From assembly GCF_001426435.1 (NCBI RefSeq), contig NZ_LMER01000013.1:1-54309 (forward strand): 54,309 nucleotides of DNA, given 5' to 3'. This stretch comes from Angustibacter sp. Root456. GTDB taxonomy: Bacteria; Actinomycetota; Actinomycetes; Actinomycetales; Angustibacteraceae. Made by a program: the position numbers and the translations under genes. Position 1 is the first letter of the stretch. Every line of letters starts with the position of its first letter. The notes under the pieces were generated by a model. It was not told the origin of the DNA, did no database searches, and saw only the letters and a program-made list of their open reading frames with translations. This document shows positions 32,086 through 36,243 of this stretch, piece by piece.

Positions 32086-32376
32086 ATGAGCACGCAGTTC
32101 CAGGTCGACACCGACCGCATCCAGGCGGCGGCCGGTGACGTGCACCGGATCAGCGCCGACATCGAGCGAGAGGTCGGCGCGATGATGACCCGGCTCGTGG
32201 GCCTGCAGGACGCCTGGCGGGGCCAGGCGGCCGGGCGCTTCCAGGAGGTCGCGACCGAGTGGCGCGGGGCCCAGGCCCACGTGCGCGAGGCGCTCGATCA
32301 GATCAGCCGCCTGCTCGGTCAGGCCGGCCAGCAGTACGCCGCCGCTGAGCAGGCGACGGCGGCGCTGTTCCGCTGA
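32086..32376 (+). CDS. WXG100-family (ESAT-6-like) protein
   Basis: 96 residues, the standard length. It is two long helices joined by the WRG turn (Trp44-Gly46 in DAWRGQAAGRFQEV), starting at ATG 32086 behind AGAGAGGGC. Such proteins are secreted as dimers by type VII (ESX) systems or act as cargo adaptors. No ESX ATPase, EccB-E or partner protein lies in the window, so this is an orphan copy. The C-terminus QATAALFR lacks a clear YxxxD/E export motif. A 14-bp hairpin lies about 95 bp downstream. Confidence 0.93.
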   Translation: MSTQFQVDTDRIQAAAGDVHRISADIEREVGAMMTRLVGLQDAWRGQAAGRFQEVATEWRGAQAHVREALDQISRLLGQAGQQYAAAEQATAALFR

Positions 32377-32471
32377 CGTGCGCTCCCGTCGCGGGTGATC
32401 TGCGCCACGATCCCCGGCGTGGCGGCGCGCGCACCCTGCCGAGGTTCGATACAACAGGAGGGCAGACACGA

Positions 32472-32506
32472 CGAGGCCCCTCCAAGTATGAGTTGGAGGG
32501 GCCTCG
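32472..32506 (+). terminator. Perfect 14-bp hairpin after WXG100, terminator or SD-masking element
   Basis: CGAGGCCCCTCCAA pairs with TTGGAGGGGCCTCG around a 7-base loop. There is no U-tract. The right arm is a strong Shine-Dalgarno-like sequence followed 6 bases later by GTG 32508 and a 10-codon frame (VCAGCGSTRS). AGGAGGG upstream (32456-32462) could pair with the left arm as an alternative. Termination of the WXG100 transcript is the simplest role. Confidence 0.6.
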
Positions 32507-32825
32507 CGTGTGTGCGGGCTGCGGCTCGACTCGGTCGTAACCTGCCGGCCACCGGGTTGACGCCCTGCGCTCCGCCCGACCAGGCCCGCGCGTCCCGAGC
32601 ACCTCGTCAACGGTGCTCCCCGAGCGGCAAGCCGCCCAGGTACGGAACGCCGGTCTCCTGACCGTCCACCTCAGCCTTGTCGGCGCCGTCCGGCCCGGGT
32701 CTCCCCGGCCCTTCCGGCCCCGCCGTCCGCTGCGGTGTGAGCAAGTTCTATCCCCTGCGATCGCTGCGGCGCAAGGGGTTTGGCGAACTTCTTCGCCTGC
32801 GGTGGGCGCCGGCTCGGTGCCCACC

Positions 32826-32935
32826 TGTGGACGTCCCTGTGGACCAGCTGTGGACTCGAGTGGTGCCGTCTGTGGACGGTGACGCGACCCAGGCGTGGAC
32901 AGGTGTGGACGACGTCTCGGACGCCCCCTGTGGAC
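32826..32935 (+). repeat. Cluster of seven TGTGGAC motifs with about 11-bp phasing
   Basis: TGTGGAC begins at 32826, 32838, 32849, 32871, 32904 and 32929, with cGTGGAC at 32894. Spacings are 12, 11, 22, 23, 10 and 25, all near multiples of 11, and not multiples of 3 overall, so this is not a coding repeat. The heptamer equals the core of the actinobacterial DnaA box (TTGTCCACA, complement TGTGGACAA), but the last two bases do not match in any copy. It ends 68 bp before the ThrE-type start. Confidence 0.7.
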
Positions 32936-33003
32936 GGCGCCGAAAGAAATCTTGGCCCCTGCCGGGGTCGGTGAGAGCGCCGCGCGCCTGGGAGAGTGAG
33001 TCC

Positions 33004-34437
33004 GTGCCGTCCACGCCCCGCTCCGCCCGCGAGACCCTGCGCCGCCGAGCCTCGCGCGCCGTGCGGTCGTCGTCCCCACCGATGCGTCCCCTCGCGCCGG
33101 CCGCCGGAGCCGACGGCGTCGACGACACGACCGCCCGCGCCGTGATCGACCTGGCACTGCGCACCGGTGAGGCGCTGCTGTCGACCGGCGCGCCGGCGCT
33201 GGACGTCACGGCGTCGGTGCTGCGCCTCGTCGAGGGCTTCGGCCTGTCGTCGTGCCACGTCGACGTCACGTACACCTCGATCACCGTGTCGTACCACCGC
33301 GGCGAGGTCGACGAGCCGATGACCGTGCTGCGCGTGGTGAAGGTCCGTGCGGCCGACTACAACCGCCTGCAGCACCTGCAGGCGATCGTGCGCGACGCCG
33401 CCGCCGGCGACCTCGACGTCCAGCAGGCCCGGGTGCGGCTGGAGGAGACCGTGCGCGCGCCGCACCCCTACCAGCGGTGGCTCGTGACCGTCGCGCTCGC
33501 CGGGATGGGCGCCGCGGTCGCCGCGCTGCTGGGCGGCGGGCCGCTGCTCATGAGCATCGCGGCCGCTACGACCGCCGCGATCGACCGCGTGCAGCGGGCA
33601 CTCGAGCGGGTGGGCTTGCCCGCGTTCTTCACCCAGGCGGTCGGCGGGGCGATGCCGACCCTCGTGGCCGTCGGGCTGCTGTCTTTGGTTCCGCGCGGCG
33701 CCCTGCGCGACAGCCAGGTCTCGCCGTCGCTGGTCGTCGCCACCGGCATCGTCGTGCTGCTGGCCGGCCTGTCGGTGGTCGGCGCCGCCCAGGACGCCCT
33801 CGACGGCTTCTACGTCACCGCCGGCGCGCGCGGCCTGGAGGTGCTCGTGCTGACCCTGGGCATCGTCGCCGGCATCGTCACGGTGCTGTCGATGGCCCAG
33901 CACGTGGGGGTGCCTCTGCGCGTGGTCGCCAGCCAGTCGCTCGCGAGCGACCCCGTGGTGCAGGTGCTGGCCGCCGTCGGGGTCTCGGCCCTGTTCGCCG
34001 TGTCCGGCTACACCCGCGGCCGCGGTGTGGTCGTGGCGGCCGGAGCCGGCGGCCTGGGGTGGGCGGCCTTCGTCACCGCGACGACGGCGGGGGTCGGCCC
34101 GGCGGGGTCGTCGGCGTTCGCGGCGGCCGTCATCGGCCTGGTGGCTCAGGTGGTGGCCGAGCGCTGGCAGGTGCCCAGCCTGGTCATCACGACGGCCGGG
34201 ATCGTGCCGCTGCTGCCCGGTCTCGCGGTCTACCGGGGGCTGTTCCAGCTCGTCGAGCAGGGCCCGACGCAGGCGCTCGGACCCGGCCTGAGCTCGCTCT
34301 TCGGGGCCGCTGCGACGGGCATCGGCCTGGCCGCCGGCGTCAGCCTCGGCGCGTTCGTCGGGCGCCGCCTGCGGCGCGAGCTCGACCAGTGGCACCGGCG
34401 GCTGCTGCGCCGTAGCGCCGGGTCGCTGCGCGACTGA
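33004..34437 (+). CDS. Threonine/serine exporter (ThrE) family protein
   Basis: About 477 residues from GTG 33004, behind GGGAGAG. The cytoplasmic N-terminal part (about 40-160) contains the ThrE domain start AVIDLALRTGEALLSTGAPALDVTASVLRLVEGFGL and HVDVTYTSITVSYHRGEVDEPMTVLRVVKVRAADYNRL. About ten membrane helices follow from residue 160, with the second ThrE_2-like half beginning near 310. In Corynebacterium ThrE exports threonine and serine. It is monocistronic, with a bidirectional hairpin 24 bp downstream. Substrate is by family only. Confidence 0.9.
   Translation: MPSTPRSARETLRRRASRAVRSSSPPMRPLAPAAGADGVDDTTARAVIDLALRTGEALLSTGAPALDVTASVLRLVEGFGLSSCHVDVTYTSITVSYHRGEVDEPMTVLRVVKVRAADYNRLQHLQAIVRDAAAGDLDVQQARVRLEETVRAPHPYQRWLVTVALAGMGAAVAALLGGGPLLMSIAAATTAAIDRVQRALERVGLPAFFTQAVGGAMPTLVAVGLLSLVPRGALRDSQVSPSLVVATGIVVLLAGLSVVGAAQDALDGFYVTAGARGLEVLVLTLGIVAGIVTVLSMAQHVGVPLRVVASQSLASDPVVQVLAAVGVSALFAVSGYTRGRGVVVAAGAGGLGWAAFVTATTAGVGPAGSSAFAAAVIGLVAQVVAERWQVPSLVITTAGIVPLLPGLAVYRGLFQLVEQGPTQALGPGLSSLFGAAATGIGLAAGVSLGAFVGRRLRRELDQWHRRLLRRSAGSLRD

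Positions 34438-34518: not shown

Positions 34519-36243
<1,725 letters not shown>

Follow-up and report, generated by a model that had tools for sequence, protein, structure and literature searches.

DnaA-box clusters that lie outside the origin have been described in several bacteria. The datA, DARS1 and DARS2 loci of E. coli are non-coding clusters distant from oriC; datA requires an IHF site and the DARS loci a defined arrangement of boxes (PMC5835720, PMC12371093). DnaA boxes are also grouped outside oriC in S. coelicolor and B. subtilis, where the clusters are said to repress untimely initiation (Smulczyk-Krawczyszyn 2006 and Okumura 2012, as cited in PMC4585315 and PMC5742627). In mycobacteria the DnaA-bound regions are oriC, rpmH-dnaA, the region upstream of dnaB, Rv0010c-Rv0011c and Rv3843c-RVnc0040, identified by affinity sequencing and ChIP (PMC7738170). 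Binding at the first three is experimental in M. tuberculosis, and the same three regions are bound in M. smegmatis; some of the mycobacterial clusters adjoin no replication gene, and among the regions described in that paper none is at groEL (PMC7738170). The high-affinity DnaA box of M. tuberculosis and S. coelicolor is TTGTCCACA (PMC4285127). Heptameric direct repeats in units of 10-11 bp are found as well in the operators of SARP regulators such as PimR, where two or three repeats of CGGCAAG lie in the promoter of an antibiotic regulator (PMC5930380).

The stretch of DNA analysed here (the window, 54,309 nucleotides of Angustibacter sp. Root456) contains between 32826 and 32935 an array of six exact TGTGGAC heptamers and one CGTGGAC, every box on the + strand. 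It is likely, judging from the comparisons below, that this array is a chromosomal DnaA-box cluster outside oriC which would act on DnaA and not as the operator of a neighbouring gene. Such a cluster resembles the E. coli loci in being non-coding and outside oriC, and differs from them in that its boxes all point one way. Its likeness to the S. coelicolor and B. subtilis clusters lies in the grouping of DnaA boxes outside oriC; function has been shown for those clusters, whereas for the array we infer it.

Table 1. Boxes of the array, the adjoining genes and the intergenic inverted repeat (coordinates of the window)
Feature	Coordinates	Strand	Remarks
Box 1, TGTGGAC	32826..32832	+	congener counterpart TGTGGAT at -262
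Box 2, TGTGGAC	32838..32844	+	congener counterpart TGTGGAC at -250
Box 3, TGTGGAC	32849..32855	+	congener counterpart TGTGGAT at -239
Box 4, TGTGGAC	32871..32877	+	congener partner varies with alignment
Box 5, CGTGGAC, one mismatch	32894..32900	+	
Box 6, TGTGGAC	32904..32910	+	congener counterpart TGTGGAC at -152
Box 7, TGTGGAC	32929..32935	+	congener counterpart TGTGGAC at -128
WXG100 gene	32086..32376	+	PF06013; left neighbour in both species
thrE-type gene	33004..34437	+	PF06738, PF12821; right neighbour in the window, missing here in the congener
groEL	34519..36147	-	PF00118; converging neighbour in the congener
Inverted repeat	32471..32512	.	same intergenic region as the array; 42/42 bases identical in the congener

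Composition and spacing of the array

The sequence-only reading had counted seven TGTGGAC motifs; six are exact, and the seventh is the CGTGGAC at 32894. Once this box is counted the spacings given there (12, 11, 22, 23, 10 and 25 bp) are borne out. Elsewhere the window has two exact copies, 22663(-) and 53700(-), and not the single one reported. The eight copies in the window compare with a mean of 7.41 in shuffles, and the unusual feature is the clustering of TGTGGAC, not its window-wide count. Nor is the heptamer over-represented genome-wide: it occurs 298 times and the reversed control word 407 times. Under a uniform Poisson model at the genome's TGTGGAC density, about 3e-12 clusters like the array are expected per genome; chance is excluded as its source. 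Same-strand TGTGGAC pairs with gaps of 3-26 number 17 against one for the control, and TGTGGAY pairs with gaps of 0-29 number 29 against two. Random spacing throughout the genome had been named as an outcome that would speak against the array. The genome-wide check found it to be the sole chain of at least four same-strand TGTGGAY boxes with gaps up to 29 bp, and a three-box chain occurs at one further place (C20:10707-10743).

A different arrangement accounts for 14 of the 29 same-strand TGTGGAY pairs, which have a fixed step of 27-29 bp, are dispersed over 14 places and often read TGTGGACAAC...CCTGTGGAY. Two examples, G000:C16:125642-125676 (L010) and G000:C17:112112-112146 (L011), adjoin genes that we take to resemble those of DUF222/HNH proteins.

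The seven sites fit best to a period of 11.30 bp (R 0.93, p 0.006), and the six exact sites alone give p 0.025; both p values allow for maximising over periods of 9.5-12.5 bp. With 10.5 bp per turn, R falls to 0.34 (p 0.62). The proposal that all motifs share roughly one helix face thus stands for neighbouring boxes, at multiples of about 11 bp, and fails for the whole 103 bp if a turn is 10.5 bp. In relaxed B-DNA the two ends of the array fall on different faces, with neighbouring boxes roughly in phase.

Protein coding is no explanation for the array. The spacings are indeed not frame-preserving, as had been noted (modulo 3 they are 0, 2, 1, 2, 1 and 1), and GC3 is 0.76 in the in-frame upstream extension of thrE vs 0.96 in thrE itself; a coding repeat or an N-terminal thrE extension is rejected on both grounds. 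Neither does an RNA role explain it, because folding of the array is no better than that of shuffles (z 0.05); Rfam has no match in 32300-33100 up to E 1, and an RNA element was rejected. Tandem Repeats Finder reports solely a 2.1-copy, 10-bp array at 32890-32910. The spacers of the array are unrelated and an origin by tandem duplication was likewise rejected.

The heptamer at the origin, dnaA and dnaB

TGTGGAC had been called the core of the actinobacterial DnaA box, rightly so, as the heptamer sits inside TTGTCCACA (PMC4285127). The same heptamer is found at the replication genes of the genome itself. Its dnaA-dnaN interval contains seven TGTGGAT boxes, three TGTGGAY lie upstream of dnaA at steps of 12 and 10, and three TGTGGAC lie upstream of dnaB; dnaB of the congener likewise has three boxes upstream (L307, L308). 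The absence of a flanking AA from the array, raised earlier as a reservation, is correct as an observation. It is no objection to DnaA, because AA follows the heptamer in none of the 13 boxes that this genome has at oriC and upstream of dnaA and dnaB. Dispersed pairs in the genome do include AA-flanked TGTGGACAA, so the array is without a consensus flank known at other sites. The own oriC boxes are all TGTGGAT, whereas the array uses TGTGGAC, and this counts against its being a DnaA cluster. In both species the dnaB match falls into several pieces, set apart from one another inside one long open frame (L307, L308; L309, L310), which looks as if interrupted by an intein.

The own dnaA and dnaN are on contig C20 and the array is on C13, so it lies outside the dnaA-dnaN region. 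It has two features of a datA-like cluster, several DnaA boxes close together and a location outside that region. A second replication origin was considered and rejected: the minimum GC of 40-bp windows is 0.575 in 32377-33003 vs 0.425 in the own oriC, with no AT-rich stretch beside the boxes.

Similar rows are present in other families. In a member of another family of the order (L233) four TGTGGAC, all on one strand, follow each other at steps of 11, 22 and 11 in the dnaA-dnaN region. In two genomes of another family a TGTGGAY row with steps of 12, 22 and 12 bp stands apart from the dnaA-dnaN interval, some 11 kb away from dnaA (L234:14114-14178 and L235:13739-13804).

A blind scan of public genome contigs for three TGTGGAC at 10-12-bp steps returned at least 119 stretches, which are not independent because some genera and some genomes contribute more than one. 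Gene content was assigned by tblastn and records presence anywhere in a stretch (at most 8 kb), not exact position. Among the matches listed, 23 of the 119 stretches contain dnaA and/or dnaN and 15 further ones dnaB, so that 38 of these similar triples share a stretch with one or the other. The 87 stretches with non-identical spacers include 22 with dnaA/dnaN and 15 with dnaB; the 32 with identical spacers include one and none, respectively (again among the matches listed). With 37 of 87 accompanied in this way among the matches listed, the remaining phased triples are in part candidate DnaA loci. This provides a usable rule: where the spacers of a phased TGTGGAC triple are not identical, dnaA/dnaN or dnaB is often present in the same stretch. 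Wide-gap triples alone are not specific, since 54 of the order's 297 genomes contain such a three-box pattern vs 16 for the reversed control (hand count).

The dnaB stretches come from several actinobacterial genera (L078, L084, L085, L091, L103, L106, L110, L115, L119, L124, L166, L169, L178, L185 and L187). In those inspected the triple is immediately upstream of dnaB. The called dnaB ORF starts 83-106 bp from the first box in L084, L091 and L106; in L110 and L169 it overlaps the array, the ORF start there being uncertain.

Neighbouring genes and the congener

Conservation was judged on one congener (G001), in the syntenic WXG100-groEL interval. The interval is homologous (217/290, 75% identical, reaching into boxes 1-3), and since groEL and DnaA are 96% and 86% identical in protein the two are clearly different species. 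The congener interval contains seven TGTGGAY, all + and in the same orientation as the window array, 88 to 262 bp beyond the end of the groEL match, with steps of 12, 11, 11, 76, 24 and 40. The first two steps are common to both species. Lack of conservation in close relatives had been named as an outcome against the array; in this one congener it is kept, at the same place and on the same strand. Boxes 1-3, 6 and 7 align under every alignment setting tried, and boxes 1-3 differ solely by C-to-T changes at base 7. From box 3 to box 4 the alignments disagree: one opens an 11-bp gap, and in others the fourth box of either species stands opposite a decayed site. A hand-entered conservation test on six box pairs (p-value 0.0006) was set aside because the boxes had been chosen for matching and solely 1-3, 6 and 7 align throughout. 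Phase is weaker in the congener array, whose best period of 10.9 bp has p 0.08 after maximising.

The congener also bears on the genes around the array. There WXG100 and groEL converge on the array and thrE is missing at that place, so in this pair the position of the array is kept independently of local genes. The sequence-only reading had offered control of the ThrE-type gene as one possible role. A DnaA-bound array could now serve as a local thrE operator, coupling the exporter to DnaA level or the cell cycle; in the window it ends 69 bp ahead of the thrE start, and DnaA is known as a transcription factor (PMC7738170). We consider this unlikely. The congener keeps its array between converging genes without thrE, so control of thrE is not supported as the original role of the array and was rejected as such. 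The congener's nearest thrE homologue is 36% identical and about 11 kb off, on the opposite side of groEL, and there is no box at its locus. The thrE loci of 29 relatives are without a box cluster (0/29), and no thrE match was found on the array side of groEL in 60 groEL regions. A simple scan of 32350-33100 found no sigma-70-like promoter, other promoter types being outside its reach.

Another regulator of heptameric direct repeats, a SARP or other OmpR-type winged-helix protein, could be proposed to use the array as its operator. SARPs bind heptamers with 3-4-bp spacers cooperatively (PMC5930380), and the six steps of the array include one each of 10, 11 and 12 bp. The three wider steps (22, 23 and 25 bp) are, however, unlike SARP, the heptamer is that of DnaA, and between species it varies solely at the base that is variable in DnaA boxes. 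The congener array, moreover, lies between converging gene ends, though the array is upstream of thrE in the window. Such an operator appears quite unlikely.

The intergenic region also contains an inverted repeat with the stem GGCCCCTCCAA / TTGGAGGGGCC, present at one place per genome in both species. It is unchanged between the two although the surrounding interval is 75% identical. It has no Rfam match and no T run after it, and may be merely part of the WXG100 gene. In the congener the last box is inside a second, near-perfect inverted repeat just past groEL (L241, about 70-105 bp past the match end), which is perhaps the groEL terminator.

For a wider comparison we searched 60 groEL regions (1,019,764 bases), of which 20, the congener among them, come from the order and 40 from the class; they were picked by hand from the listed matches, and some end at contig edges on the side that matters (L270, L272 and L273, for example). 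At least three TGTGGAY within 150 bp were absent from 59 of the 60, the congener being the sole positive. The array is thus lineage-specific. Two other family members match solely the other groEL type (70-73% identical) and do not bear on this, so the evidence of conservation covers one genus and two species. Among the top-ranked matches in the open-licence literature, none reports a cluster of DnaA boxes at groEL.

One further row by groEL, outside the 60 regions, was noted in a Nocardioidaceae MAG (L164:6111-6240). Six + strand TGTGGAC lie 368-491 bp past groEL, between a peptidase-like gene and groEL and on the same side of groEL as in the window; the far side has a MoxR-like and a VWA-like gene, as in the window. 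Its first two spacers are identical and its period has p 0.27. We treat this row as a separate case, possibly of convergence. The wide conservation beside groEL that it suggested was rejected, 59 of 60 groEL regions being without a cluster.

The array could also be a functionless remnant of local sequence duplication. Tandem duplication predicts identical spacers, and 32 of the 119 scanned triples elsewhere have them among the matches listed, L164 beside groEL being one. The array itself has unrelated spacers, however, and its aligned boxes keep their first six bases in both species in an interval of 75% identity, which makes this explanation very unlikely.

A candidate site of DnaA control

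A DnaA-box cluster acting on DnaA is the reading we prefer. We infer that the head-to-tail boxes, spaced by one or two turns, would be occupied by several DnaA molecules, probably cooperatively. The bound array would then titrate DnaA or alter its nucleotide state, and such titration or modification would damp untimely initiation, as datA of E. coli and the S. coelicolor and B. subtilis clusters reportedly do. In E. coli, the distance between oriC boxes can be altered by one helical turn but not by a fraction of a turn (as cited in PMC4285127). A more elaborate proposal, which we regard as doubtful, is that the lineage-specific, roughly 11-bp-phased unidirectional row, with its fixed place between WXG100 and groEL, might nucleate one DnaA filament and set the timing of initiation, and that in the present species thrE, lying at its edge, might be exposed to DnaA control.

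Maps of DnaA control beyond oriC exist for few actinobacteria. A compact cluster whose position is unchanged by the gain or loss of an adjacent gene makes a clean candidate for a site that may titrate or modify DnaA.
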